Assembly: GCA_025361065.1 (NCBI GenBank)
Contig: JANYAY010000045.1
Location: 1-35,110, forward strand
Source: Deltaproteobacteria bacterium
GTDB lineage: Bacteria; Desulfobacterota; Syntrophia; Syntrophales; Smithellaceae
DNA length: 35,110 bases
Reading direction: 5' to 3'
Below are positions 5,442 through 28,695 of this stretch, one piece after another. Positions within the stretch are counted from its first letter, which is position 1, and each line of letters begins with the position of its first letter. The notes under the pieces were generated by a model that was not told where the DNA came from, ran no database searches, and worked only from the letters and a program-made list of their open reading frames with translations. A program made the position numbers and the translations under genes.

Positions 5442-6845
5442 ATGTTCGACGACCTGACCTTCAAGATACAGAGACGCTTCCTGCAAAATTACCTGAAGAA
5501 ATCCGCCGCCTATTACAAAAATGATCAAGAAAAATACCTGCTCAAGGTTTTCCACAAGTATGCGTCGTCCATTCCCGCCTACACGAAATTGCTCCAGGAG
5601 AAAGGCGTTGATCCGGCAAACATCACATCCGTCGATGCCTTCAAACGGCTTGTGCCGGTAATCGACAAATATGACACCTTCATCAAATACGAAGGCCGGA
5701 TATCGAATCTATGTGTGGGTGGAAATCTGCATGATATCGTTTCGATCCTGTCGAGTTCCGGCTATTCAGGCCGATTCGCCTACGGCCTGATTTCCAAAGC
5801 CGAAGATGAGGACGGCAGTACAATGCTCGATCTTTATTTGGACCATCGTTGGCATATTTTCGAGCGCCGGACACTGCTGATCAACTGCCTTCCCATGGGT
5901 GTCAAGGTGGCAAGCAAACGCACGGTAGTGGGAGACGTGAGTGTCCGGCCCGATATAGCCGTATCCCTGGTTCGCGGATTCGGCAAAGATTTCGACCAGA
6001 TCATCATGATCGGCGAAAATACTTTTATGAAATACACCCTGGAGTACGGGATGGAAAAGGGCATCGACTGGTCGGATTACAATATCCGCCTTATTGTAGG
6101 TGAAGAGAGCTTCCCCGAGACCTACAGAACATATATGGCTTCTCTACTGCACAAAGACGTCGACAAAGCCGAAGAGATCATCGTCGGATCTTCGATGGGT
6201 ATATCCGAGATAGGCCTGAGCGTCTTTCAGGAATCACTCGATACAATCAGAATCAGAAGAAAACTCGATGCCGATCCGGTGCTGCGGAAAAAATATTTCG
6301 GCAATGTCAGCTTTACGCCGATGATCTTCAATTACGTACCCATGTCTGTCTATGTTGAGCAGCAGCAAAAGGAGGGTGATGAGTTTCCCGAATTCATTTT
6401 TACACCGCTCAGTCTGAAGAAGAAGTTGCCGCTTATCAGGTACAACAGCCACGACAAAGGTACCCACATCGAACCCGGCGAAGACATCAAACAGTTCATC
6501 ACGACCAACCTGCCAATGGTCGCCATTTATGGCAGGGGAGATTATATTGAAGTGGCCGGGAAGAGGATATACACGGAAGGTGTGAAAGAAATCCTCTATA
6601 GCAATATTGCTTTTGCCGCGAAGGTTACCGCCAATTTCCTGCTTCCTCCGGGCGTGCATGCACAAAAGCCGGTATCATTGCGCCTCCAGCTCAAAAAAGG
6701 CATTGCTGCGACTGCCCAGCTCAAAAAGGAAGCGGAAGAGATCATTTCCCAACATTATGGAGACCTGCTCCAAATTGAGCTTGTGGAATTCGATGGGATG
6801 GCACTCGATTTCGAAAGAAAACTGCCTTACCTTGGTTCATTATAA
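5442..6845 (+). CDS. LuxE/phenylacetate-CoA ligase-like acyl-adenylating enzyme
   Basis: The 467-residue protein resembles the adenylate-forming LuxE acyl-protein synthetase/PaaK group. Family features are an N-terminal helical region with SIPAYTKLLQ, a Ser/Gly-rich nucleotide loop SILSSSGYSGR (residues ~101-111), a GEESFPETYR segment, a GSSMGISEIG block (usual place of the aromatic adenine-binding motif) and a C-terminal AIYGRGDYIEVAGKRIYTEG. It would activate a carboxylate with ATP, for transfer to a thiol (protein, CoA or ACP). The exact substrate is not readable. An in-frame ATG lies five codons upstream at 5427, but GGAGGTG at 5429-5435 is spaced correctly for the ATG at 5442, so the shorter form is preferred. 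It stands alone between two repeat-filled gaps. Confidence 0.75.
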   Translation: MFDDLTFKIQRRFLQNYLKKSAAYYKNDQEKYLLKVFHKYASSIPAYTKLLQEKGVDPANITSVDAFKRLVPVIDKYDTFIKYEGRISNLCVGGNLHDIVSILSSSGYSGRFAYGLISKAEDEDGSTMLDLYLDHRWHIFERRTLLINCLPMGVKVASKRTVVGDVSVRPDIAVSLVRGFGKDFDQIIMIGENTFMKYTLEYGMEKGIDWSDYNIRLIVGEESFPETYRTYMASLLHKDVDKAEEIIVGSSMGISEIGLSVFQESLDTIRIRRKLDADPVLRKKYFGNVSFTPMIFNYVPMSVYVEQQQKEGDEFPEFIFTPLSLKKKLPLIRYNSHDKGTHIEPGEDIKQFITTNLPMVAIYGRGDYIEVAGKRIYTEGVKEILYSNIAFAAKVTANFLLPPGVHAQKPVSLRLQLKKGIAATAQLKKEAEEIISQHYGDLLQIELVEFDGMALDFERKLPYLGSL

Positions 6846-7256
6846 GAGAGCTTTGCACAAACACTCTCATCGTCAGACCGGCGAAGAGACAGTGTCGTAA
6901 CAAGAGAAAGCAACTTCAAAATCGTCATACCGGCTAAAGAGACTGTGTCACAATAGCAAGAAGCGCTATCAATAAGTGTCATGCCGATGGAAATCGGCAT
7001 CCAGAACTCACTGATAATACTGGATTCCCCCGTATCAAGTACGGGGCAGGCTCTTCGTCGCGCTACGCTTGCACGGAATGACGAAATGGTAATTACGACA
7101 CAGTCTCGAAAGTCGGGAACCAGAATATTTAATGATAATACTGGATACCGGCCTGCGCCGGTATGACGATATTGTTGGTTTATTCAGTTATGCAAAGTTC
7201 TCAAAGCTCTGGCATTGGCAAATTGGGAAACTTATACTTAGACGGGCGGATTGGAC
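6846..7256. repeat. Repeat-filled gap
   Basis: No gene is visible. It holds GAGACTGTGTC-type 11-mers at about 6885, 6939-6949 and 7097-7107, 27-nt hairpins at 6978-7004 and 7141-7167, and a 64-nt CTGGATTCC...GGAATGAC element at 7019-7082 closely matching 1481-1544. Confidence 0.75.
7019..7082. repeat. CTGGATTCC...GGAATGAC element, 64 nt, second copy
   Basis: Differs from 1481-1544 by a single visible substitution (GGCAGG versus GGCAAG) over 64 nt. Ends and inner hairpin are conserved. Confidence 0.8.
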
Positions 7257-8831
7257 GTGATTGACTATACCAGATTCTACGGTTTTTCAGAAATTCCCTT
7301 TGACATCTCACCGGACCCCAAATTCTTTTTCCCCTCGGCAAGCCATAGCGAAGCCCTGGCTTCCCTGCGTTACGGGATCACCCACAAGAAAGGCTTTATC
7401 CTTATTCTGGGAGAAGCCGGCATCGGCAAGACCACACTTCTGCATTACCTGATCAACACACTGGATGTAAATGTAAAACCCCTTTTTTTCCCGCAAAGCC
7501 TAAGCCATTTCGAACAGATGCTCCAGGAAATGCTCACCATGCTTGATCTGTCTCCCGCATTAAAAACCAAGGGCTCCATGATCCATGAGCTTTATGATCA
7601 CCTGATTGGATGTCTGACGCGGGATGAGACGGTGGCCATCATAATTGACGAAGCTCAAAACATCGGTCTGGATGTAATTGAAGAGGTTCGCCTGCTGGCA
7701 AATCTGGAGACCAGCACTGCAAAACTGCTGCAGATTGTGCTTGTGGGCAAGCCGGAACTCCAGGAAAAACTCCGTTCCGAAGTCATCAGGCAAATCAAGC
7801 AACGGATTGTCATCGTTTGCCAAATCAAACCATTGAGTGAAAAAGAATCGTGGCAATACATTGATCACCGGCTGCGGATTGCGGGAAGCGGCGCTGCGGA
7901 AGTTTATACTGACGAAGCCCTATCCCTGATCTGCCGTTCCGCCAAAGGATTCCCCCTTGCGCTAAATGTCCTGTGCAGCAATGCCCTGTCCGTGGGATAC
8001 TGTCTTGCCGAGAAAAGAATCTCTTCATCCACGGTGAAGAAAATCCTTCCCGAAAAAGACATCCTGACCTCGGATCGGGCTCAGACTCTTGCGTTAAGAA
8101 TTAAAAGACGTCTTCCACATAAAATTTTCTATAGCATTACGGCGCTCGTTTTCCTGGCACTTATTCTATTTTTCGGCCGCAGCTATTTACAACCAATCTT
8201 CGATGCGCCAGAGCCGAATCATTCAGTACTCCCACCGGCTGTTGGGGAGAATACCTCCGCACCGAAAATTAAACCTCAAGCAGCAGCCGATCATATTTCT
8301 GGCAGTCCGGATCCAAAGATTATGAATGCCGCGCAGGAAGTGCCAAAAATCGCCGCTGCACCTGCGGATCACTCCAATAGCGAAATTCACATAAAAGAGA
8401 TTGCCGAGGTGAAACAGGGTGTCAACCTGTACTCGCTGGCTTACCGATATTATAAGGTGTCCGACGAAACATTTATTGACCATATCCTGAAACTCAATCC
8501 GGAAATCAGGAACCCTCATTTGATTTTGATCAGCCAGAAAATCAAGATTCCGGAAATCAACCAAGCATTGCTGATTATCCAGTACCCGGATAGTGTTTAT
8601 AAAATTCACCTGAGGACTTTTGCTGATCGCCAGGGCGCCATCCAATTCCGGCGGAATGCTGAATTATGGGGAAAAGAAACTGAGATCGTCCCGCTGAAGG
8701 TATCATCGACCGAAACATGGTACAGAGTGATGGCGGGACCATTTGCCAACAAGGATGAAGCATCAAAGGCACTGGAAGAAATGAAACAAAAAGGTTTTTC
8801 TATGATTCCATCACAAGCAGATAAATCGTAA
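7257..8831 (+). CDS. ExeA/GspA-type AAA ATPase with membrane anchor, LysM and SPOR domains
   Basis: The protein is about 524 residues. The N-terminal AAA ATPase is of the ExeA/GspA type (YGFSEIPFDISPDP opening; Walker A GEAGIGKTT near residue 52-60; Walker B IIDEAQ near 129-134). A single membrane helix follows at ~289-307, then an Ala/Pro-rich periplasmic linker, a LysM-like peptidoglycan-binding stretch (~386-434, VNLYSLAYRYY) and a C-terminal SPOR-like domain (~443-518, YRVMAGPFANKDEA). Known ExeA proteins couple ATP hydrolysis to peptidoglycan remodelling for secretin or pilus assembly; carrying both LysM and SPOR suggests a septal or pole-linked role. The start is GTG 7257, six bases after GGGCGGA (7244-7250). 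TTG 7251 would add two residues but has no spaced ribosome site. A terminator follows directly. Confidence 0.85.
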   Translation: MIDYTRFYGFSEIPFDISPDPKFFFPSASHSEALASLRYGITHKKGFILILGEAGIGKTTLLHYLINTLDVNVKPLFFPQSLSHFEQMLQEMLTMLDLSPALKTKGSMIHELYDHLIGCLTRDETVAIIIDEAQNIGLDVIEEVRLLANLETSTAKLLQIVLVGKPELQEKLRSEVIRQIKQRIVIVCQIKPLSEKESWQYIDHRLRIAGSGAAEVYTDEALSLICRSAKGFPLALNVLCSNALSVGYCLAEKRISSSTVKKILPEKDILTSDRAQTLALRIKRRLPHKIFYSITALVFLALILFFGRSYLQPIFDAPEPNHSVLPPAVGENTSAPKIKPQAAADHISGSPDPKIMNAAQEVPKIAAAPADHSNSEIHIKEIAEVKQGVNLYSLAYRYYKVSDETFIDHILKLNPEIRNPHLILISQKIKIPEINQALLIIQYPDSVYKIHLRTFADRQGAIQFRRNAELWGKETEIVPLKVSSTETWYRVMAGPFANKDEASKALEEMKQKGFSMIPSQADKS

Positions 8832-8874
8832 ATCACCCTTTCCATAAACATAGAGGAACCACCTTCCCCGCCCA

Positions 8875-8912
8875 TAAAAAAAGGGCAGAACCAAATCGGC
8901 TCTGCCCTTTCG
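8875..8912 (+). terminator. Rho-independent terminator after the ExeA-like gene
   Basis: The stem AAGGGCAGA (8881-8889) pairs with TCTGCCCTT (8901-8909) around an 11-nt loop, with an A-run before and a short T-rich stretch after. It lies about 45 bp past the stop codon. Confidence 0.8.
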
Positions 8913-9102
8913 TTATTCCGTAACTCGTCACTGTGAGAGAAGTAAATAGTGAATAGTAACGAGTAACGGGTAAGGAAAAGAAAACGAATTGTGATCGGTG
9001 GTTTTAAAGTTTTTTACTCGTTTCTATCAACGCGTCACCAGTTACTGCATTTTATCTTTTACTCGTCACTATTGATGGTCTCGTAAAAAGTCCGTCACAC
9101 CT
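8913..9102. other. Gene-free interval with short repeats
   Basis: It contains repeated ACTCGTCACT (8922-8931 and 9061-9070) and GTAACGAGTAACGGGTAA-like runs. Bases 9077-9102 carry a TCGTAAAAAGTCCGTCACACCT repeat seen again (inverted) at 23699-23724. No gene is visible. Confidence 0.5.
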
Positions 9103-9270
9103 CTATGTTCTTTGCAAATAACATGTAAGTTTCTCAACCTCGGGAGGTTGGGTAAAGGTCTTATGTTCAAATTGTTCGGTAAGTATACTCACGCTCCAAC
9201 TCCTCTTATGGACGTCCATGCCAACGTAAATGTGTTGACCTCTGAAATCAAGTTTGCTACCTTTATTCAT
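9103..9270 (-). pseudogene. IS110-family transposase, N-terminal remnant
   Basis: Reading the minus strand from ATG at 9270 (with AGGAGG at 9277-9282) gives 55 residues before TAG at 9103-9105. They include IYVGMDVHKRSWSVSI, the first catalytic Asp block of IS110 DEDD transposases, followed by FEHKTFTQPPEVEKL, also typical. A full IS110 transposase is ~320-400 residues, so more than 80% is missing. The plus-strand open frame over the same place is its antisense shadow. It lies between inverted TCGTAAAAAGT motifs (9083-9093 and 9487-9498). Confidence 0.8.
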
Positions 9271-9809
9271 GGCAAGCCTCCTCTAGGTTTATTTGTGTTT
9301 TGGCGAACAAAATATACCATTCATCATGGAGACTTGCCTTATTATTTTTTATCATAAGGTCTGGTGAAAACCGGTGTCCAGCGTTTTGTAAGTCTTTGAT
9401 ATATCTGAATTACGGCTTTAGTAACCTAATAACCTGAAGGTCACGCGAGGTCACAAGACCGGAATGACGATTCTGAGGCTTTTCCCACTTTTTACGAGGT
9501 CGTCATTATTAGGCCGGAATGTCACCGGGATATGCAAAATGCCAACTTGCAGTTTGGCTGGACGCAGCAGGTATTTTGTGCTAATTTTAAGAAATTGCGT
9601 AAATAATCGCTGATATTTTAATGAAGAAAGCCCTATCTTTTGATAATCAACCACCTCGCGAGCAAGCTTACGAGGTATGAAATGAACGTCATTATATCGC
9701 GAACGAGCTCATGAGAATTAACGCTCGTCCCGCGTGAGCGGGATTAAGCCAAAATCGCTGGAATATTTGTTGGATACGCCGAAATAAATCTGTGGGATTG
9801 GAATAACGT
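9271..9809. repeat. Gene-free interval with two dispersed repeats
   Basis: Bases 9421-9461 are a copy of the 40-bp CTAATAACCTGAAGGTCACG-type repeat also at 5195-5235 and 15268-15307. Bases 9487-9498 carry ACTTTTTACGAG. Bases 9643-9744 are the inverted partner of 328-429 (near-identical over ~100 bp). No gene is visible. Confidence 0.7.
9643..9744. repeat. ~100-bp element, inverted partner of 328-429
   Basis: Reading the reverse complement of 328-429 gives the same sequence, including the shared core GGTATGAAATGAACGTCATT, with about ten to fifteen differences. The two copies are in opposite orientation 9.2 kb apart. Confidence 0.8.
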
Positions 9810-10082
9810 ATGACACGCCAAGAAATTGAAAAAGAAATTAAAAATATTTTCCAGCGGGAGTTTGAAGTCGAAAATCCCGGCATGGATGATAATTTAAGAG
9901 AGGCATATGGGTTTGATAGTATTGATGCCATCGAACTTCTGCTGGAAATAGAAAAGTTATTGGGCTTCGAGCTTACTCAGGAAGAAAAAAAGCAAGCTAT
10001 GGATATCCGTACAATCAATCAAATTTGCGACTATGTCGAAAAAATTATCCGGATAAAAGCAACTTCGGCCGGAGAAAAATAA
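9810..10082 (+). CDS. Acyl carrier protein
   Basis: A 90-residue acidic protein with the phosphopantetheine attachment motif GFDSIDAIEL; Ser37 is the modified residue. The four-helix ACP pattern is readable (N-terminal TRQEIEKEIKNIF, then the DSI helix and a basic tail). It diverges from the housekeeping AcpP (DSLDTVEL) and has a longer Lys-rich C-terminus, so it is probably a dedicated carrier for the ketosynthase beginning 3 bp after its stop. The ribosome site is weak (TTGGAATAACGT before ATG). Role: carries the growing or transferred acyl chain in the cytoplasm. Confidence 0.9.
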   Translation: MTRQEIEKEIKNIFQREFEVENPGMDDNLREAYGFDSIDAIELLLEIEKLLGFELTQEEKKQAMDIRTINQICDYVEKIIRIKATSAGEK

Positions 10083-10085
10083 TTT

Positions 10086-11324
10086 ATGGAACGCAGGGTA
10101 GTCATTACAGCCGCTTCGGCAATAACCCCCATTGGGCATGGCAAAGATCAAATAATTAACAGCCTGCTCCAGGGTATTTCGGGAATAAAGCCTTTGCGCG
10201 AAGATGCATTGATCAGCCGCTTCATCCATTCCAAAGTCTATGGAACCGTTGACTATCCCATTAACTATGATTTTAAGCGGCAATATCGCAAAACAATGGC
10301 GCCTTGTGCCTATTACGCCTGTCAGGTTGCCAAAGAGGTTTTGGAGGAGTCGGGGCTGACCTCCGAATTTATAACTTCCGGGAAATTAGGAGTTGCCTTT
10401 GGCTCTATTCACGGCAGCCCGATCACCCAGCGGGATATTTACCGCACATTTTTTGGAGCAACAGATAATAAAGATTATAAAACAATCGGTGCTGTCGATT
10501 ACCTGAAGTCAATGGTGCATACCACTGCCGTCAATATTACCAAGATGTTCGGCATTACCGGACGGGTTATTTCCTCCGGTACGGCTTGCACAACCAGCAG
10601 TCAGTCCATCGGTTATGGTTATGAGTCGGTTAAATTCGGAATGCAGGAAGCGATGCTTTGCGGTGGCGCTGACGAATATGATACAATCACAGTCGCTGTT
10701 TTTGATAATCTCCTGGCCTGTTCCACTGCTTTCAACAGTGACCCGCAGCGTACCCCGCGTCCTTTTGATAAATTGCGTGACGGACTGGTAGTGGCGGAAG
10801 GTGCCGGTGCCGTAATGCTGGAAGAATATGAATTCGCCCGGAAGCGCGGCGCTAACATTCTGGCGGAAGTTATCGGCTTCGCCTGCAATAATAATGGCGG
10901 CGATCTGATTTTGCCCAATCTCAACGGGATAACCAATACGCTCAAGCTCGGTCTGGAAAATGCGAAAATTAATTCTGCAGAAGTCGATTTAGTCAGCGCT
11001 CACGCCACTGCCACAAAGATGGGCGATATCATTGAAGCCCAGGCCATAAGTAATGTCTTTGGTGATCATCCCTATGTCGTCGGCCTGAAAGGCTATATGG
11101 GGCATACGATGGCTGCCTGCGGGAGCATCGAAACAATTCTCTCGCTTTATATGATGCAGGAAGGATTTATTGCGCCGACATTGAATCTGGAAGAAATTGA
11201 TGAACGGTGCGCGATGATCAAACATGTGCAAAAAATTATCCAGCATCCGGTAAAAACAGCGGCTATTCAAAATTTCGCCTTTGGCGGAGTGAACACCATA
11301 TTGCTCATAAAAAAAATATCCTGA
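10086..11324 (+). CDS. Beta-ketoacyl-ACP synthase, FabF-like
   Basis: The 412-residue thiolase-fold condensing enzyme has a complete Cys-His-His triad: Cys168 in SSGTACTTSSQS, His306 in SAHATATKMGD and His340 in GLKGYMGHTMAACG, with Lys335 and the C-terminal NFAFGGVN loop. It would condense malonyl-ACP with an acyl primer. Its sequence differs from classic FabF (SIATACTTS, THGTSTP-type motifs), placing it among the standalone KAS enzymes of small lipid or polyene-like clusters. It is translationally close to the ACP upstream (3 bp) and the acyltransferase downstream (7 bp), indicating one operon. No ketoreductase or dehydratase is adjacent, so a partner system must supply reduction. Confidence 0.9.
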   Translation: MERRVVITAASAITPIGHGKDQIINSLLQGISGIKPLREDALISRFIHSKVYGTVDYPINYDFKRQYRKTMAPCAYYACQVAKEVLEESGLTSEFITSGKLGVAFGSIHGSPITQRDIYRTFFGATDNKDYKTIGAVDYLKSMVHTTAVNITKMFGITGRVISSGTACTTSSQSIGYGYESVKFGMQEAMLCGGADEYDTITVAVFDNLLACSTAFNSDPQRTPRPFDKLRDGLVVAEGAGAVMLEEYEFARKRGANILAEVIGFACNNNGGDLILPNLNGITNTLKLGLENAKINSAEVDLVSAHATATKMGDIIEAQAISNVFGDHPYVVGLKGYMGHTMAACGSIETILSLYMMQEGFIAPTLNLEEIDERCAMIKHVQKIIQHPVKTAAIQNFAFGGVNTILLIKKIS

Positions 11325-11331
11325 GATCAAA

Positions 11332-12114
11332 ATGCCCGAAAAAAGAAGTATCCACCACCTAATCGATTTGTTTATTACCCTGCTCTTATGGTCTTACTTC
11401 CTTTTCGGTTCTATTGTTTTCTTCTTTTTGTTTTACATACCGGCATATATTTTTGCGGAAAATCGTGTAACGGCTTTTCAGAATTTAAACCACCTGCATA
11501 TGAAGAATTTTTTTACATTGACGCGATGGCTTGTCCCCCACACAGAATTTGCAATCCAAAAGGAAGTACGAAAAATCAATTCATCTGTAATTGTCTGTAA
11601 TCATTTGTCTTATCTTGATCCTATTTTGCTTATTTCGCTTTTACCCCGGCTGCGGACAATTGTGAAAAGCACGTTTTTTAAGGTTCCCTTCTTCGGCTGG
11701 CTCTTAAAAAATTCCGGTTATGTGCCTTCGGCGCCGAGTGAAATGCTCGGACCGGCAATGATTAATAATCTGGAAAGTATTAAAGAACATCTGGCGGCGG
11801 GCGGCAATCTATTTGTCTTTCCGGAAGGGACAAGGAGCCGTAAAGGCAATATGATGCCCTTTAATAAAGGAGTATTCAGCATTGCCCGCTACTGTGATGC
11901 GCCATTAAAACTGATTTTTATTAAAGATACGAACAAACTTTTCCCTCCCGGTTCATTCTCCTTTAACACCCGCGATTTTAATAAAATCAAGGTAGAATTA
12001 ATAGGATCATTGGAACCGGATTATCAGGGCAACAATTTTTCCATCTCCGCCGTCGCCGATCAGGCCCGCAAGATGTATGAAGCACGCATTACCGCGGAGA
12101 AAGATAAAACCTGA
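11332..12114 (+). CDS. Lysophospholipid acyltransferase, PlsC-like
   Basis: The 260-residue membrane protein has an N-terminal hydrophobic helix (~15-42) and the two hallmark acyltransferase motifs: NHLSYLD (NHx4D, residues 90-96) and FPEGTRSRKG (163-172). It would transfer an acyl chain, likely from the ACP encoded two genes upstream, onto a lysophospholipid or related hydroxyl at the inner membrane. It begins 7 bp after the ketosynthase stop, with no clear ribosome site of its own, suggesting translational coupling. Acceptor specificity (glycerol-3-phosphate lipid versus ornithine-type or other lipid) is not readable. Confidence 0.9.
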   Translation: MPEKRSIHHLIDLFITLLLWSYFLFGSIVFFFLFYIPAYIFAENRVTAFQNLNHLHMKNFFTLTRWLVPHTEFAIQKEVRKINSSVIVCNHLSYLDPILLISLLPRLRTIVKSTFFKVPFFGWLLKNSGYVPSAPSEMLGPAMINNLESIKEHLAAGGNLFVFPEGTRSRKGNMMPFNKGVFSIARYCDAPLKLIFIKDTNKLFPPGSFSFNTRDFNKIKVELIGSLEPDYQGNNFSISAVADQARKMYEARITAEKDKT

Positions 12115-12185
12115 AAAATAGGACGGGGGGATTATTTTTCATATCCGACCGGACCGGACGTCTTGAATTTTACCATCTAATGTTC

Positions 12186-12215
12186 TTGACATGTAGCAAT
12201 GTCTTCTTCTATAGT
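12186..12215 (+). promoter_or_regulatory. Sigma-70-like promoter upstream of the PilT-like gene
   Basis: TTGACA at 12186-12191 and TATAGT at 12210-12215 are separated by 18 bp. Transcription from here would give a leader of roughly 140 nt before the ATG at 12367. Within it, an A-run and a TTTTTTAT run near 12295-12330 could pair weakly. No known riboswitch was recognised. Confidence 0.5.
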
Positions 12216-12366
12216 ATTTATGCTAGATGATTGTAGTGCCTGTGAAAAAGACCATAAGATAAATAGTGTTCTTTAATTAAAAACTGTGCCTGACATAAAA
12301 AAATAAGTCTCTACAGGCTCTTTTTTATCATGTCGGGTCCGCAAGGCAATTATCAGGTGGAAAAAA

Positions 12367-13608
12367 ATGATTGAGTTAATCACAAAAAGATTCCAGGAAA
12401 TAATCAACGATGCCATTACCGATAGTTTGTCCGATATCTATATCACCGGCGGTCATCCAATGGTATCGAGAAAAAACGGCGTGATCCAATTTCACAGTGC
12501 CATTAAATGGACTCATCAGGAGGTCGATGACTTACTCCGACAGTTTCTCGTTCCCCGGCAGCTGGAAGTCCTTCGGGAAAGGAAGTCCGTGGATTGTGCG
12601 CTGTCGGTTAGCAATATTCGCCTCAGAATCAACGCTTTTGCGACAAACCGGGGAATAAGCCTGGCTATCCGTGTTCTTTCGGGTTATATACCGACGATCG
12701 ATGAACTGAATCTTCACCCTTCTCTTCACGAAATTTCCAAAGTAAAATCCGGCCTGGTATTGACGTGCGGCGGCACAGGAGTCGGCAAGACGACCACCAT
12801 TGCCGCCATCATCAACGCCATCAACACCACACGAGCGGCGCATATCATAACTCTGGAAAATCCCATTGAGTATAGATTCCAATCCAAGAAAGCTTTCATT
12901 CAGCAGAGGGAGCTTGGCACCCACATGCCCTCATATGCCCAGGGTTTGCTCGATGCATTAAGAGAAAACCCCGATGTAATTGTCGTTGGTGAGCTTCGGG
13001 AAATGGACACCATGCAGATTGCCCTCACTGCCGCAGAGTCGGGACATCTGGTCATCGCCACGCTGCATGCATCCAACCCGGAGGAAGCCATTTACCGTAT
13101 CTGCAATACCGTTCCGGCAGATTCCCAAAATGACGTCCGTTACCAACTGGCGTCAACGCTGCAATGGCTTATTGTTCAGCAACTTGTCTATCTTAAAAAA
13201 TTCAAAATTCGCGTGCCTCTGCTGACTATTGCCCGCGGAACTCAGGCAATCAAAAACACTATTCGTGAAAATAAATTGAATCAGCTAGAAAGTGCAATTC
13301 AAATCGGAAAAAATGATGGAATGTTCACGGCGGCAAGCTATTTCACCGACTATCTGGAAACCCGCCAGAACTTTATTTCTCCGACACAGGTTTTCCGTCC
13401 TTCCCCGGAAACCATAAGCGAGATTGTCTACGAATCGCCTCTAACCAAGGACGTTCCGGTACTAAAATCACTCAAGCAAAATCAACACAGGTCTGGCAGC
13501 GAGTCTATAATAATTCGATCTGAATATGGCAATGATGAAATGGAGACTATGCTGACTATCGATGAAGACGCATCGTTGCAGGAACTCATAAGAAAACTGG
13601 AAGGTTAG
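12367..13608 (+). CDS. PilT/PilU-type pilus retraction ATPase
   Basis: This 413-residue secretion ATPase of the PilT family has Walker A GGTGVGKTTT (135-144), the Asp/Glu box around ENPIEYRF (164-171), Walker B NPDVIVVGELRE (201-212) and the His box GHLVIATLHA (226-235). PilT-type ATPases drive depolymerisation of type IV pilins at the inner membrane. The N-terminal domain has SDIYITGGHPMVSRKNG in place of the usual SDLHLSAG-type block, and the C-terminus is extended and hydrophilic past residue ~355, more like PilU or a divergent PilT. The PilZ gene begins 11 bp downstream. The ATG follows AGGTGGAAAAAA. Confidence 0.9.
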   Translation: MIELITKRFQEIINDAITDSLSDIYITGGHPMVSRKNGVIQFHSAIKWTHQEVDDLLRQFLVPRQLEVLRERKSVDCALSVSNIRLRINAFATNRGISLAIRVLSGYIPTIDELNLHPSLHEISKVKSGLVLTCGGTGVGKTTTIAAIINAINTTRAAHIITLENPIEYRFQSKKAFIQQRELGTHMPSYAQGLLDALRENPDVIVVGELREMDTMQIALTAAESGHLVIATLHASNPEEAIYRICNTVPADSQNDVRYQLASTLQWLIVQQLVYLKKFKIRVPLLTIARGTQAIKNTIRENKLNQLESAIQIGKNDGMFTAASYFTDYLETRQNFISPTQVFRPSPETISEIVYESPLTKDVPVLKSLKQNQHRSGSESIIIRSEYGNDEMETMLTIDEDASLQELIRKLEG

Positions 13609-19298: not shown

Positions 19299-20290
19299 TA
19301 TAAAGGATAGGACGCTGCCTTGAATATAAAATAGGTGTTATGTCGTGCAACAAGGGAAAGTGGCAGCCGAACGCAAGGCACTGCTCAAATGGATAGAAGG
19401 TCTGCCCGGACCATGGCTGGGAGCGATGGAAGCAACCATATTTACCGGTTGGATATACGATTTTTTAAAACCCCATGCTTTTGATTTGAAGGTAGCTCAT
19501 TCCGAGATGCTCAAGGCGATTACGGCGGCGAAGAAGAAAAATGACCGTGGCTGATGCGGAGAAAATAGCGGACCTGCTGAGAGTCAATCTGTTGCCGGAA
19601 TGCTACATACTTTCGGAAGAGATACGAGAGCTGCGTCGAATTCTGCGTTACAGGAATATGATCGTTCGAACCGCCACCAAGATGAAGAACAAGATATCAG
19701 GATTGTTAATGGAAACCGGAACGCCATACAACAAAAATAAACTACACGGCAAAAAGTATTTTGGCAATCTGCTGGAGCGGATTGAGGATGTTCCGGATTC
19801 GGTAAAGGACATGTTGAAACTGAGCCGCAGTAGTTTGGAGATGTTTGAAGCTGTTCAGAAGAAACTTGTAAATACGTTACGGAAAGACAATCTGATTCGT
19901 GAACGGGTTCAAAGATTGATGAGCATCAAAGGCGTCGGTGAAGTCATGGCTCTTACCTGGGTATTGGAGATAGATGAGTCTTCTCGTTTTTCTTCAGCGC
20001 GTCAAGCAATCAGTTATTGTGGTCTTTGCAGTGCTCAGAGAGAATCGGCAGGGAAGGAACAACGTGGGCCTATTTCCAAGAAGCGTAATAAACATTTACA
20101 GACAATGCTGGTAGAGGCAGCCAAGCTGGCGCCGCGCTGGAATCCGCAATTGGCAGCGCTTCATGAGAAGGAACTAATCCGAGGCAACCGTAATCGGGCA
20201 ACACTGGCTGTCGCCCGTAAAATGGTGGAATATATGATGGCGGTTGAACGGCAGCAAAAAGATTTTGTGCCGTCGGAACTGGCGGCTTAA
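19299..20290 (+). pseudogene. Decayed IS110-family transposase
   Basis: Two open segments (GTG 19345 to 19554, and 19541 to 20290) together make one IS110-type transposase: AMEATIFTGWIYDFL and KAITAAKKKNDR in the first, DAEKIADLLR, RLMSIKGVGEVMALTW and the RQAISYCGL region in the second. They join in frame if one G of GTGGC near 19547-19551 is removed, giving NDR-ADAEKIADLL. Upstream, the frame from 19299 reads GxDAALNI, a plausible first-Asp block, interrupted by TAG at 19308-19310 and 19332-19334 and by a frame change before 19345. It therefore carries several lesions and is unlikely to make an active enzyme. Confidence 0.8.
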
Positions 20291-20800
20291 AAGGAGATTG
20301 CATAACCTTTTTTACCGAATGATCTTCCCGCTGGTCCTTGCTTTCGTGGGGACTGCGTGAGTCCAAGAGACTTCACGCCTTTGTTATGTTTCGAGGCTGA
20401 CGGGTTGGCCCAAACTCAATCTTCGGCAAAGGTCAACAAAAATGGTTTTATCCGGTAATATATGTGGCTATTGTTTCTGATGCCTGCGTGATCCCAAGGT
20501 GGCGCGCCTCCGACGAGCCTGATTTAATGGCCCATTCTCGGCGCGAACATCGCACAGTGGAATTTCAGGCAAATACCATGAGCAGGATCAAACCGAATGC
20601 TTTATGGCATCTATGACCTGATACCGCAAATGGATGTCTGGTCGACTGATCACTATCAGGTTGACCCAAGAGAAAGAATAAAAAAAATTGGACGGAGAAA
20701 AAGGCGTTACAAATAACCACTGGCGGCATCCGGGAAGGTCAGGGAAAATCTCCGTTTTTCTCCTTGACATTTCTTATCATGGATGTCCCGTGAATGCTAA
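20291..20800. other. Gene-free interval 3' of the IS110 remnant
   Basis: No gene is visible. An inverted repeat ACCTGATA (20616-20623) / TATCAGGT (20654-20661) encloses 30 bp. Another short pairing, ACGGAG with CTCCGT, surrounds 20692-20755. The first ~150 bp may be the end of the insertion sequence. Confidence 0.4.
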
Positions 20801-21781
20801 TTATTCATTTTTCTGTAAGCAATGTTGCAAGAATACCATAACCACATTCATTAACAATAAGACATCAGAAGATGTAGCCTCTGTAATAGATGGTTTAGCA
20901 GTGCTTTTCGTCGCTCTCTCGGCTGGTATGAAATTTTGAAATACATTTATAATCGGTTCTGTAAATCGAGTAATCGGAATAAGATTTTGATTCTTTGCGT
21001 CCTTAAATAAATTTGCTAGTTCACCCTTGCTGTTCTTTCCTTCTTTCCCGACGAGAATTTGAAAAAACCTTTGAATTGCACGATGTGCCTTAGTTATGGC
21101 TTCTGGATATCTCTTCTCTCTATAATCTGCAAACATTTGTTTCAGATCATCACTAACGCTTTCCCACTTTGGATCCGATAGGGCTTTTAAAGTTGGCACA
21201 TATATCTTTTCTGTAATAACTTGATCTTGTCTTGGTACAAATCCATTTCGCGTCAGTATTATGTTTAAAGCCTGTTGTTCAAAAATATGATTAAGACAAT
21301 TACTCAATCTGTCAAATTTACCAAAAGATTTTTTAATATACTCATTTCTCTTCTCATCAATTTCTTCCTTTTTTGCCGAGTTTAGATATTGCATATCGAT
21401 ATGACATTCGGCAAATTTAGAAAGTGTTCGAAGAACTAACACACCTGATTTTTCATGTAAAAAGATGTCTTGAAAATCAAGTGTTGCAGCTTCTATTCTC
21501 TTAAAATTATTGCCATTGTGAAGTTCATTCTCAGGTTTAATTTTATGTAGTCTCTTGCCAGGGCACTGTCTTAGAAAATTGTAATTTAGATATTCTATAG
21601 TGTGCAATATTTCTCTCGAGTATAATTCTAACCACCCTTTATTTTTCAATTCCTGCAATGATATTTCTTTCTCAGATATTTGCAGATCATCCCATTGCCG
21701 CAATCCAAGATTTGGTTGAATTTGTTGCTCAATATTCGGATCATTTTCGCCATATAATTTAAATATTGGTATTTTTGTCAT
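20801..21781 (-). CDS. Hypothetical protein with abortive-infection-like (HEPN-type) C-terminus
   Basis: The 326-residue protein is not confidently assigned to a family. The last ~110 residues read YPEAITKAHRAIQRFFQILVG...IPAERATKSTAKPSITEATSSDVLLLMNVVMVFLQH (shown in part), matching the layout of the Abi C-terminal/HEPN-like domain: a helix carrying AI.KA, a conserved Arg after a loop, a Ser/Ala-rich turn and a final long helix. The N-terminal two thirds are helical and charged, with no recognised motif. The gene is clearly more AT-rich than its neighbours and lies between an IS110 remnant and a palindromic element, suggesting horizontal acquisition. A defence role is an inference. The ribosome site is poor (GGAGCTCCGTTTCTA before ATG). 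Confidence 0.6.
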   Translation of the reverse strand: MTKIPIFKLYGENDPNIEQQIQPNLGLRQWDDLQISEKEISLQELKNKGWLELYSREILHTIEYLNYNFLRQCPGKRLHKIKPENELHNGNNFKRIEAATLDFQDIFLHEKSGVLVLRTLSKFAECHIDMQYLNSAKKEEIDEKRNEYIKKSFGKFDRLSNCLNHIFEQQALNIILTRNGFVPRQDQVITEKIYVPTLKALSDPKWESVSDDLKQMFADYREKRYPEAITKAHRAIQRFFQILVGKEGKNSKGELANLFKDAKNQNLIPITRFTEPIINVFQNFIPAERATKSTAKPSITEATSSDVLLLMNVVMVFLQHCLQKNE

Positions 21782-22433
21782 TAGAAACGGAGCTCCATTT
21801 TTAAATGTTTTTCAAATAATAATGCATTTTTAAACATTTATTTAAACATACTCGTAATTTCCTTTATTTCAATCGTTTTTTTGGACTATACTGAAGGCTG
21901 ATAATAAGTGCATCAGACCGGCGAATGTTGATGGAACAGTGGGCACAAGGTTCAAAGTTTATATCTGAAATACTGCAATTGAAGGGACATACAATAAGCG
22001 ACTATGCCCGAAACGTTGTGGCTCTTGGCGAAATGGAGCATCAGACAGCCGAACTGTTTGAGCCGCAGGCGAGTTTTCGGCTGTCGCGCAATGAGCCTTA
22101 GAGCCATAGTTGCAGGGCATTAGGAGCGTTTGGCTGCCCCTTCAACTGCAGCACCTTATAGTTTCTTATCCTGGATTCCCGCCTGCGCGGGAATGACATC
22201 TGGAGGCGTTCTTTCATGAACGCAACGGTTTTAAAGTTGATTTCTTACCATTTCGAAACCTCTTTATTACTAAGGTGTTGCTTAAATATACTCGCAATTT
22301 TCTTTATATCAATTCATTTTTTGAATTAGGCTGAAGACCGAAGGCTGAAGGAATAACGAATGATGATCGGATTCCCATTCGCATACCCTGATCACCCGAA
22401 ATCGGTTGCAACTCTTTTAAGAATCGGCTGAGA
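21782..22433. other. Gene-free interval with long palindrome and direct repeats
   Basis: Diverged ~58-bp direct repeats (21843-21900 and 22284-22345; cores ATACTCGTAATTTCCTTTAT and ATACTCGCAATTTTCTTTAT) flank a 179-nt imperfect inverted repeat (21973-22151). A 27-nt hairpin repeat is at 22171-22197. A 58-codon open frame (21925-22101) crosses half of the palindrome and is not called as a gene. Confidence 0.6.
21973..22151. repeat. 179-nt imperfect inverted repeat
   Basis: The ends CTGCAATTGAAGGG (21973) and CCCTTCAACTGCAG (to 22151) are complementary. Further paired blocks converge inward: ATGCCC (22004-22009)/GGGCAT (22115-22120), TGGCTCT (22019-22025)/AGAGCCA (22100-22106) and GACAGCCGA (22044-22052)/TCGGCTGTC (22077-22085). 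The arms thus pair over most of their ~84 nt, leaving a ~24-nt loop. This could be a MITE-like element or a structured RNA. Confidence 0.7.
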
Positions 22434-22770: not shown

Positions 22771-22896
22771 AAAATCATTATTTTTCTATTTAGCCTTTTC
22801 TATGCTACAGTGCGTCTGATTATAATCAGAAAGGAATAAAAGAAAATGATGAAACCGGCAAAGGATTCTATTGATTTGCGGAATCACGGGACATAA
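22771..22896 (+). pseudogene. Truncated duplicate of the glyoxalase-gene 5' end
   Basis: Bases 22771-22878 are about 90% identical to 23807-23913, the upstream region and first eleven codons of the VOC gene. After the shared MMKPAKDSIDL, this copy diverges (RNHGT) and stops at TAA near 22894-22896. It is a gene start without a gene. Confidence 0.85.
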
Positions 22897-23078: not shown

Positions 23079-23357
23079 ATGATTAAATCTTTCCACTGCA
23101 AAGATACACAAGCTTTGTTTGAAGGTAAATGTCCTCGAAAACTCAAAGCCATTGCCACTGTAGCAGAGAGGAAACTACAGATGCTGGATAATGCTTGCGC
23201 ACTGGAAGACTTGCGAACACCACCGGGCAACAGGCTTGAGGCGTTGCGTGGTAATCTCAAAGGTCTCTGGAGTGTCCGTATTAACAATCAGTGGCGAATA
23301 TGTTTTCGTTTTGAAAGCGGCAACGCCTTGGATGTGGAAATCATCGATTATCATTGA
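23079..23357 (+). CDS. higB: HigB-type toxin (RelE superfamily mRNA interferase)
   Basis: The 92-residue basic protein has the HigB signature order: IKSFHCKDTQALFEG at the start, LRTPPGNRLEALRG, then WSVRINNQWRICFRF and a closing VEIIDYH. RelE-fold toxins cut mRNA on the ribosome. Toxin-first order, with the antitoxin 12 bp downstream, is the higBA arrangement. No lesion is visible, so the module looks intact. Confidence 0.92.
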   Translation: MIKSFHCKDTQALFEGKCPRKLKAIATVAERKLQMLDNACALEDLRTPPGNRLEALRGNLKGLWSVRINNQWRICFRFESGNALDVEIIDYH

Positions 23358-23369
23358 GGAGGTTATACA

Positions 23370-23675
23370 ATGACTGTTAAAAATAAAATGCGACCCATTC
23401 ATCCCGGCGAAATATTGCGGGAGGAGTTTCTCGTGCCGCTGGCGCTGAGCGCCCATGCGCTGGCAATGGAACTCAAAGTTCCGGCACCACGGATCAATGA
23501 TATTGTTCGTGAACGTCGCGCCATCACGCCAGACACAGCGCTGCGACTGGCGCGCTATCTCGGAACAACCGCTCAGTTCTGGCTAAACCTGCAAACCAGC
23601 TATGATCTGAAGATAACTGAAAAAGCCATCGGCTCTAAAATAAAAAATGAAGTCCATACACGCCTTGTCGCTTAG
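23370..23675 (+). CDS. higA: HigA-type antitoxin (Xre-family HTH)
   Basis: The 101-residue protein has RPIHPGEILREEFL, the HigA opening, then an HTH with ALAMELKVPAPRINDIV and TPDTALRLARYLGTTAQFWL. It neutralises the upstream toxin and should repress the promoter through the TAACGC/GCGTTA palindrome. GAGGAGGTTATACA precedes its ATG, a strong ribosome site favouring antitoxin production. Confidence 0.93.
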   Translation: MTVKNKMRPIHPGEILREEFLVPLALSAHALAMELKVPAPRINDIVRERRAITPDTALRLARYLGTTAQFWLNLQTSYDLKITEKAIGSKIKNEVHTRLVA

Positions 23676-23729: not shown

Positions 23730-23880
23730 GAGTGACAAGGAGAAGATGTCTCTCAGCAATTCGACATAAAAAGTGCGGTTGCGCTATCGCCCTTAACAGT
23801 TATTGCAAAATCATTATTTTTCCATTTAGCCTTTTCTATGCTACAGCAATTGATAATAATCAGAAAGGAACATAAACACA

Positions 23881-24282
23881 ATGATGAAACCGGCAAAGGA
23901 TTCTATTGATTTGGGAGTGATTGTTGGGGATATCAAGGCCAGTCTCAACTTCTATCAAAATATTTTGGGGCTGGAGTTTGTGGGGACAACTCCTTTATGG
24001 TTTGGCACAATGCACCGGCTGAGATTCGGCACAAGTGATTTCAAGTTGATTGAACCGAAAGTATTGCCTCCATATGGCGCCATCGGGCTGGAAAATCAAG
24101 CAGGTTTTCGCTATGTGACTTTTGTAATAGAGAATCTCTCAGACCTTTGCATGGATCTGCAGAAACAAGGCATCGAGTTTACCGTGCCGGAAATGGAAAT
24201 CCGTCCCGGTGTGCGCATCGCGATGGTAAAAGATCCGGACGGAAATGTCGTAGAATTTGTGGAACGAAAGCTTACAGCTTGA
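23881..24282 (+). CDS. Glyoxalase-fold (VOC) protein
   Basis: The 133-residue single-domain VOC protein has SIDLGVIVGDIKASLNFYQ..LGLEF at the N-terminus and VKDPDGNVVEFVE at the C-terminus, the paired beta-alpha-beta-beta-beta modules of the superfamily. The metal ligand pattern is partly readable (closing Glu in VEFVE). It could be a lyase, epimerase (methylmalonyl-CoA-epimerase-like) or dioxygenase; the sequence does not decide. AAAGGAACATAAACACA precedes the ATG. Its upstream region and first codons are duplicated at 22771-22878, on the other side of higBA. Confidence 0.8.
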   Translation: MMKPAKDSIDLGVIVGDIKASLNFYQNILGLEFVGTTPLWFGTMHRLRFGTSDFKLIEPKVLPPYGAIGLENQAGFRYVTFVIENLSDLCMDLQKQGIEFTVPEMEIRPGVRIAMVKDPDGNVVEFVERKLTA

Positions 24283-27402: not shown

Positions 27403-28695
27403 ATGACTATATGGAAAAAGAAAAATACAATTCTTGTGACCTGCCCGAAGGGAGTCGCGCCTTATTTGCAGGCAGAAATAACCGCCTTAGGTTTTCCGGT
27501 GCTGTCGCAACTCGATACGGCCATCCAGACAGAAGGAAGCCTTGAGGATACACTGTTTTTGAATCTTCATCTGCGCACTGCCCAGCGAGTTCTGTACCAA
27601 CTGGCAATACTGACTGCCGGCACTCCGGGAGTTCTTTACGGACATCTGTATGACTTTCCCTGGGAAACATTAATTTCTGCTTCCGGGAAAACCGCTTATC
27701 TTTGCGTAACCTCGATTGTCGATAATCCGCTTATTACCGATTCCCGCTTCGTCAACGTCAAAGCAAAAGATGCCATCGTGGACCGGATTCGCGACAAACG
27801 TGGTTTGCGTCCCGATTCCGGCCCGGATAAAGATAAAGCAGTTGTTCATATTTATTGGAAAAACGATCAGGCCGCAGTTTATCTGGACACTTCAGGGGAG
27901 AGGCTGGCGTTGCGCGGCTATCGCAAAATTCCCCTCACGGCACCTATGCAGGAAACTCTGGCGGCGGCAGTTATTCTTGCTTCCGGTTGGAATGGCGAAG
28001 GGGCATTTATCAACCCGATGTGCGGCAGCGGAACGCTGGCCATCGAGGCGGCAATGATCGCTCATGCCCGTGCGCCCGGGTTGCTGCGCAATAATTACGG
28101 CTTTATGTATATTCAGGGATTTCCGGAAGGTCTCTGGCAGGAAATGCGCAAAAAGGCCCGGGATGCCGCGCGGAAAAAGTCGCCCGTAAAAATCATCGCG
28201 ACCGACAGGGACAAAGAGGCGGTCCTTGCCGCCCGGCAAAACGCCCAGACCGCAGGCGTCGATCACCTGATCGAATTTGATAACTGCCCTTACGAAAGAA
28301 CACCTCTTCCGGAAGGCGGCGGCGTGATAATTTTAAATCCGCCCTATGGCGAACGCATGGGCACTACCGTGCATAAAAATCAAAATCGCAGCAGGGATGA
28401 ATTCCCCGCGCAACACAAAGTCATTCTCCGTAGGGCCGCCGAAAGATCCGATAGCGGCAAACGCATTATTTCCGGCACACAGACGGACTTAGACAATCTT
28501 TATCAAGGCATTGGTGATTTTTTTAAAAAGACCGGCGGCGGCTATCGCGGCTATATCTTCACCGGCAATCTGGAAATGATCAAGAAGATCGGGTTAAGGA
28601 CCAAACAGAGAATAATTCTTTACAACGGCGATATCGAATGCCGTCTGCTGGAATATGAGTTATATGAAGGCAGCCGGAAAAGTCCCAGCATTTAA
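27403..28695 (+). CDS. THUMP-domain 23S rRNA methyltransferase-like protein (RlmL N-terminal type)
   Basis: The 430-residue protein has an N-terminal ferredoxin-like/THUMP region (~1-165) and a class I SAM methyltransferase (~175-430) with NPMCGSGTLAIEAAMIA (SAM loop), IIATDRDKEAVLAARQNA and the catalytic ILNPPYGERMG (N312-P-P-Y). Such enzymes put m2G on 23S rRNA (G2445-type). Between the NPPYGERMG motif and the usual following TDLxxLYxGIGDF block lies about 40 extra residues (321-360, TTVHKNQNRSRDEF...IISGTQ), an insertion the family does not normally have. The start ATG at 27403 follows AAAGG. Confidence 0.85.
   Translation: MTIWKKKNTILVTCPKGVAPYLQAEITALGFPVLSQLDTAIQTEGSLEDTLFLNLHLRTAQRVLYQLAILTAGTPGVLYGHLYDFPWETLISASGKTAYLCVTSIVDNPLITDSRFVNVKAKDAIVDRIRDKRGLRPDSGPDKDKAVVHIYWKNDQAAVYLDTSGERLALRGYRKIPLTAPMQETLAAAVILASGWNGEGAFINPMCGSGTLAIEAAMIAHARAPGLLRNNYGFMYIQGFPEGLWQEMRKKARDAARKKSPVKIIATDRDKEAVLAARQNAQTAGVDHLIEFDNCPYERTPLPEGGGVIILNPPYGERMGTTVHKNQNRSRDEFPAQHKVILRRAAERSDSGKRIISGTQTDLDNLYQGIGDFFKKTGGGYRGYIFTGNLEMIKKIGLRTKQRIILYNGDIECRLLEYELYEGSRKSPSI

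Follow-up and report, generated by a model that had tools for sequence, protein, structure and literature searches.

HEPN domains rank with the most common RNA-cutting modules of immunity systems, and the histidine of their motif is taken as a sign of activity. Their active sites usually arise in dimers. The closest described relatives of the protein reported here are the AbiJ proteins with an AbiJ-NTD4 domain (STM4504/CBY_0614, NF046078), for which it has been proposed in print that the N-terminal part exerts restraint or sensing and that the HEPN domain acts on RNA upon infection. As described in PMC3710099, the HEPN motif is located at the end of helix 3 and in the loop that follows. Families lacking the motif are allowed within the superfamily (PMC3710099), and in AbiV and AF0298-type proteins the motif histidine has been lost, a basic residue is kept and a second conserved histidine may provide an alternative site (PMC3710099). 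PrrC and RloC are HEPN nucleases tied to restriction systems, according to the same source.

Here we describe an AbiJ-like HEPN protein gene located in a 35,110-nucleotide stretch of DNA, referred to as the window. Sequence comparison places the gene in a rare family, sister to AbiJ, one branch of which has an altered HEPN active site throughout. The family shares with AbiJ-NTD4 proteins the two-domain organization, the C-terminal HEPN domain, a collinear profile alignment and the presence of a beta hairpin together with the HEPN helices. However, the AbiJ motif RNxxGxHG is replaced by ERAT[KN]STAKP in one branch of the family (K branch) and by R[QG]xxxxxHP in the other (H branch), and residues 1-150 are dissimilar when compared as sequence profiles, the level at which the comparison was made. 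That the catalytic histidine has been lost throughout the K branch had escaped the first-pass annotation of the window. The two sister branches form a natural pair for asking whether histidine loss leads to lost activity or to changed chemistry, and the occurrence of the H branch in type III restriction operons offers a test of two-layer defence.

Gene structure, composition and selection

The gene occupies positions 20,801-21,781 on the reverse strand and encodes a K-branch protein of 326 amino acids, an assignment based on the ORF, its homologues and the codon-position pattern. According to the ORF listing of the window, the 326 codons start with an ATG at 21,781 and the stop codon ends at 20,801. 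An AT-rich composition unlike that of the flanking genes had been noticed at first reading and was confirmed by our measurements, the gene showing a GC content of 0.33, compared with 0.47 elsewhere in the window, and a GC3 of 0.27, compared with 0.44-0.64 in the other listed ORFs of at least 150 codons. Comparison with L005, the nearest full-length homologue (63% identity), returned differences of 0.30, 0.17 and 0.52 at codon positions 1, 2 and 3, respectively, thus indicating that the ORF is coding and under purifying selection. An artefactual ORF was ruled out by the existence of homologues. A weak promoter-like site, TTGAAA-16-TATGTT, lies 5' of the gene at 21,845-21,872 (reverse strand), in a region holding 19 such sites against a chance expectation of 10.7.

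Domain organization and predicted fold

The whole protein was modelled with AlphaFold2 on an alignment of 12 sequences, L002 and L003 being left out of the structure-prediction alignments, and the model showed a mean pLDDT of 82 and a pTM of 0.62. In this model, residues 202-326 (20,804-21,178, reverse strand) adopt the four-helix arrangement of the HEPN fold, with helices at 204-221, 225-243, 274-291 and 304-322. When the model of this region was compared with known structures, the ten best VIA rows were all HEPN structures or HEPN-containing proteins, including human sacsin, AF0298, TM0613, AbiA and LsoA, with Z values of 8.2-11.1, in a range (Z below about 13) that can also reflect the common arrangement of helical bundles. 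The best rows were 3o10 (Z 11.1, rmsd 3.7, 120 aligned residues), 1ufb (10.3) and 2hsb (9.8); the HEPN rows also include 5yep and 4nqf. Csm6 came next with a Z of 7.3, and the best unrelated row showed a Z of 6.0. Foldseek alone returned two HEPN-type chains at probability 1.00 and no match at E <= 0.001 for the HEPN-domain model, and the viral fold search returned none at the same threshold. Fold and profile comparison support the assignment of residues ~202-326 of the model as a predicted HEPN domain. The Abi C-terminal/HEPN resemblance originally reported for the last ~110 residues is supported in kind by the HEPN fold, the profile match and the sub-threshold NF046078 signal described below, and was too short in extent, the region measuring ~125-140 residues.

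The N-terminal domain (residues 1-183; 21,233-21,781, reverse strand) was analyzed in a separate model of residues 1-187, built on an alignment without L003 and L012, which both miss that part. The resulting model (pLDDT 87.3, pTM 0.85) consists largely of helices and includes a beta hairpin at 175-182. Comparison with solved folds gave a best VIA Z of 4.0 and no Foldseek match at E <= 0.001. The absence of a recognised family in the N-terminal part, already pointed out on first inspection, holds for residues 1-150 in family-model, profile-profile and fold searches.

Relationship to AbiJ proteins

Scans with single sequences against Pfam, NCBIfam, PHROGs, PADLOC and the PDB gave weak or no matches. 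The window protein matched no PADLOC model and did not match Abi_C (PF14355) at E up to 10, and AbiJ_NTD4 (PF18863) was not matched by any of the 14 family members within the same limit. Weak Abi_C matches were shown by the relative L003 (0.14) and by the plasmid protein L004 (7.5e-4), an AbiJ protein annotated as AbiJ-NTD4; the H branch shares the Rx6H layout of Abi_C, whereas the window protein lacks a match to it. The NF046078 model scored the window protein at 30.5 bits, below the curated cut-off of 150, and gave a signal in 13 of the 14 members (E up to 1; best 3.1e-8). L004 itself matched Pfam AbiJ_NTD4 at 3.9e-15 and reached 119.3 bits with NF046078, under the same cut-off of 150.

The family profile was then aligned with hhalign to an AbiJ-like set, alignment A5, consisting of L004, the one member compared with the family models, and five of the six weak matches from the Pseudomonadales phylum; the weakest, L022, was dropped. 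The alignment had a probability of 98.2% over 270 columns. A rerun against A5 gave 98.9% for the whole protein, 98.6% for residues 184-326 and 44% for residues 140-200, while residues 1-150 returned 0.0. The highest of twenty column shuffles was 0.3% for the whole protein, 0.2% for the N-terminal part and 2.1% for the C-terminal part. On the basis of these values, together with the NF046078 signal, homology to AbiJ is assigned to the HEPN half. Since the scores lie under the curated cut-offs, the family is a divergent sister of the AbiJ/STM4504-like families rather than a member.

Other weak matches were recorded. A T4 RIIA.1-like match (PF24210, 5.2e-4, below cut-off) was set aside, as it is confined to 34 residues of helix 2 (224-257) and to one of the 14 members. 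Residues 155-321 matched phrog_20794, a family without known function, at 1.1e-4, and weak C-terminal matches to "Exodeoxyribonuclease I" occurred for four members in Pfam and three in NCBIfam. As a separate observation, 332 plasmid records contained matches to AbiJ-NTD4/STM4504-like proteins; Escherichia accounts for 286 of these records, and 297 of the total are predicted to be conjugative.

The motif histidine is replaced by lysine in the K branch

The motif was examined in alignment A3, whose 14 rows comprise nine K-branch sequences (the window protein and L005-L012) and five H-branch sequences (L002, L003, L013, L014 and L015). All 14 rows share R289 (codon at 20,915-20,917, reverse strand) and P297, which no gap separates. 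All five H-branch rows read R-x6-H-P, i.e., the HEPN Rx4-6H motif with a six-residue spacer. The window protein reads R289-x6-K296 (codon at 20,894-20,896, reverse strand), and lysine occupies the motif-histidine position in all nine K-branch rows as well as in three of three further Nitrospirota sequences, twelve out of twelve overall. A sequencing or alignment error at K296 was discarded on the basis of this agreement and of the gapless R289-P297 interval in A3. The complete motif ERAT[KN]STAKP is present in the same 12 sequences; in the window protein it spans E288-R-A-T-K-S-T-A-K-P297 (20,891-20,920, reverse strand). It occupies the place of the HEPN motif, R289 and residue 296 being found in the model at the end of helix 3 and in the loop to helix 4. 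Nine of its ten positions are invariant in the nine K rows, the highest value of any ten-residue window, compared with 27.6% over all positions.

The change extends beyond the histidine. The residue following R289 is A290 in all nine K rows, replacing a polar residue, and the E-x3-K of the AbiJ set corresponds in helix 2 of the window protein to Q237-x3-Q241, with Q237 aligned to the AbiJ glutamate. The window branch thus has neither the polar residue after the arginine nor the helix-2 acid (Ex3[KR]), and three of the four canonical HEPN active-site features are missing in the K branch. H233 (codon at 21,083-21,085, reverse strand), four residues or one helical turn before Q237, is invariant in the K branch, the H-branch rows having I or V there. 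Retention of the motif arginine, absence of the motif histidine and a further conserved histidine N-terminal to the motif are features that the K branch shares with the AbiV/AF0298 type. In the latter, however, the histidine is located in an insert between helices 2 and 3, as reported in PMC3710099, whereas in the K branch it lies in helix 2 and is accompanied by a fixed lysine. H233, R289 and K296 may meet in space; the motif loop (286-298) has a pLDDT below 50 in the model. The K branch forms one clade (support 97/93), and the H group is poorly supported as one (59/56). Searches of the open-licence PubMed Central literature retrieved no earlier report of a lysine in the HEPN motif.

Replacement of the motif histidine by an equally conserved lysine indicates either a changed chemistry or a protein that is no longer an enzyme. 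The interpretation we moderately favour is that the gene encodes a mobile, AbiJ-like two-domain single-gene defence effector whose remodelled HEPN site acts on RNA. According to this model, the helical N-terminal domain would hold the protein inactive and would sense infection or the failure of a companion system, after which the C-terminal HEPN domain might act on RNA and stop growth or phage production. The site would have been rebuilt by keeping R289, exchanging the histidine for K296, introducing A290 and, in place of the helix-2 acid, Q237, and acquiring H233. The high, branch-specific conservation of this site argues for a pocket in use, with catalysis by the rebuilt site and non-catalytic RNA binding about equally probable. 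Lysine and arginine are both used in the chemistry of RelE and colicin E5. A more specific version, in which the fixed lysine, the kept arginine and the relocated helix-2 histidine cut RNA and the variant has spread as defence cargo through several phyla, is put forward only tentatively and we consider it rather unlikely.

The strongest alternative, although still a fairly improbable one, is that the K branch is devoid of catalysis and that its HEPN domain binds RNA without cleaving it, or binds a protein partner; a role of this kind has been suggested in the literature for MtlR-like HEPN domains. The replacement of the motif histidine, of the polar residue after the arginine and of the helix-2 acid would all fit such a protein, and non-catalytic roles are assigned to motif-less HEPN domains in PMC3710099. 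However, a dead site should drift, whereas no other stretch of the protein is as strongly conserved as this one, which is fixed in 12 of 12 sequences, a conservation that RNA binding could also explain.

Distribution of the family

The gene had been described as an orphan, a label that no longer applies, as relatives at 31-65% identity were found in Patescibacteria, Pseudomonadota, Nitrospirota, Bacteroidota and one archaeon. It was absent from 154 other genomes of the host order in a sequence search and from 154 genomes for the class in a profile search, and two relatives, L002 and L003, were detected among 297 genomes of the host phylum; L003 carries an in-frame stop. A search of genome_contigs with the single protein retrieved no relative. 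The profile search of the same collection with alignment A2 retrieved eleven (L005-L015; best-segment identity 64-31%), whose titles name Kerfeldbacteria, Magasanikbacteria, Patescibacteria, Proteobacteria/Pseudomonadales, Nitrospira, Sediminibacterium, a Pacearchaeota archaeon and one bacterium.

Phylum surveys were carried out with profile A3. The Nitrospira phylum yielded matches in 5 of 315 genomes, three of them new, and those of Sediminibacterium (1 of 316) and Kerfeldbacteria (1 of 332) returned the genome on which each search was centred. In the Pseudomonadales phylum 7 of 349 genomes were matched, namely the centre genome and six with weak matches (7.8e-11 to 3.8e-4) to AbiJ-like proteins. 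Such few and dispersed matches indicate that the family is rare and scattered. L016, L023 and L033-L035 duplicate other loci of the set. Two viral-contig scans and a phage scan contained no relative, and plasmids no close one: the window protein retrieved the distant AbiJ-NTD4 protein L004, and queries with L002 and L009 retrieved none. The GC content of the gene is below that of its surroundings in seven of the eight other K-branch loci of A3 (for instance 0.40 within 0.63 in L007), the exception being L008 (0.39 within 0.38). The family moves horizontally between distant hosts. Searches of the open-licence PubMed Central literature retrieved no earlier report of it.

Genomic neighbourhoods of the relatives

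Recognised defence loci were found at four of five H-branch loci and at three of eleven K-branch loci other than the window, figures that are raw counts over chosen neighbours, part of all those present. In three H-branch loci (L002, L013 and L014) the gene directly follows a type III methyltransferase gene (mod) and precedes a type III restriction gene (res). Both were confirmed by PADLOC in L013; in L014 they were read by eye and res is cut by the contig end; in L002 the methyltransferase part was confirmed, mod being split, res cut short and a RhuM/Fic gene lying between. Among the remaining H-branch loci, L015 is followed by an integrase and by GajA and GajB (Gabija), and the stretch of L003 contains a YoeB-like toxin and a Fic gene. 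Within the K branch, the L008 gene lies 228 bp after AbiEi and AbiEii, the L010 gene ~2.7 kb after SngB and SngC (Shango) with an integrase downstream, and the L009 gene between a TIR gene and an integrase. PADLOC recognised no neighbours, as far as they were scanned, at L005, L006, L007, L011, L012, L039, L040 and L041. The first-pass annotation had stated that homologues never found in defence islands would speak against a defence role; relatives do occur in type III operons and near Gabija, AbiE, Shango and TIR genes. The smaller number of K-branch loci with defence genes makes the link to defence weaker for this branch than for the H branch.

The H-branch proteins resemble PrrC and RloC in being HEPN proteins embedded in an R-M locus; they differ from what PMC3710099 describes for these nucleases in that the family has no ABC ATPase domain, the restriction system is of type III instead of type I, and the window gene stands alone. 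Searches of the open-licence PubMed Central literature retrieved no earlier report of HEPN genes between type III mod and res. L042 carries at 6,657-10,569 a type III restriction system in which mod is split, res is short and the HEPN gene between them is intact. Two further, unrelated ORFs, each lying immediately 3' of a K-branch gene, contain a HEPN-like RNxxxH stretch: one in L007 (9,178-9,978), with a weak RiboL-PSP-HEPN match of 4.5e-4 below cut-off, and one in L006 (1,207-1,908), with no Pfam or PADLOC match.

The type III operons raise an alternative to which we assign a low probability, namely that the family began as the third gene of such operons, acting as a guard or regulator, and that the K branch is a stand-alone form and not a defence system of its own. 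Three of the five H-branch genes do lie between mod and res, and AbiJ proteins are noted in R-M operons in PMC3710099. However, the K-branch stretches lack R-M genes and their active site has changed; this origin and an independent defence role could also hold together. A similarly small chance is given to the reading that the product has no part in defence and is an RNA-binding protein of HEPN fold, regulatory or metabolic in role, encoded by a mobile gene. The loci L005, L006, L011, L039 and L041, which have no recognised defence gene nearby, would agree with it, whereas the patchy spread over distant phyla, the AT-rich cargo, the integrase neighbours and the sister genes in restriction operons do not.

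The accessory insert around the gene

The gene lies in an accessory insert of the window (~19.07-24.33 kb), flanked by an rrf2-type regulator gene on one side and an ABC-transporter locus on the other. The insert contains an IS110 transposase in two frames, dispersed repeats, the AbiJ-like HEPN gene and HigBA. It was compared with three relatives of the same genus, L030, L031 and L032, the last being uninformative because its stretch ends short of rrf2. Since rrf2 and the ABC-transporter gene are ~194 bp apart in L031 and separated by ~3.5 kb of unrelated DNA in L030, the stretch was assigned as an accessory insert. Two genes, both named by eye, occupy the L030 gap (9,716-13,206): one for an alpha/beta-hydrolase-like lipoprotein and one for an MtfA-like peptidase. 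As this gap holds other genes, the rrf2-ABC interval may be an insertion hot spot.

The IS110 transposase remnant (19,345-20,290, forward strand) is split over two overlapping ORFs in different frames, the second matching Transposase_20 at 1.5e-21; the split might represent either decay or a frameshift signal. Among the 20 matches listed in its own genome, none was a further copy of the transposase. HigB (3.3e-19) and HigA (6.4e-35) form a separate module at 23,079-23,675 on the forward strand, in agreement with the nearby higBA module noted previously. PADLOC analysis of 10 other window proteins returned a single, partial match, of the ORF at 27,403-28,692 to mad2, and no defence gene besides HigBA was seen near the window gene among these proteins. 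That the gene is an imported relic heading for decay in its host is very improbable, as the ORF is full length with its branch motif intact and codon differences at third positions, despite the short insert with its frameshifted IS110 and dispersed repeats and the in-frame stop of L003.

The gene had also been placed between a decayed IS110 and a long palindrome. The split IS110 is indeed there; the palindrome corresponds at most to an imperfect inverted repeat at 20,682-20,775 (21-nt arms, 76%), which lies 3' of the gene, as does IS110, or to a short REP-type one near 22,171-22,200. The segment 22,166-22,206 is a short REP-type palindromic repeat, of which the genome has about twelve nearly identical copies. 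Just 3' of the stop codon, the segment 20,672-20,795 has three further occurrences in the genome, 84-88% alike and located on contigs C158 and C37, and is possibly a small mobile repeat. Finally, HigBA is bracketed by a direct repeat of ~107 bp (22,771-22,878 and 23,807-23,913), whose copies are 88-98% alike in pieces and which includes the start of the next, glyoxalase-type ORF (23,881-24,282), as if the module had arrived with a duplication of its target.
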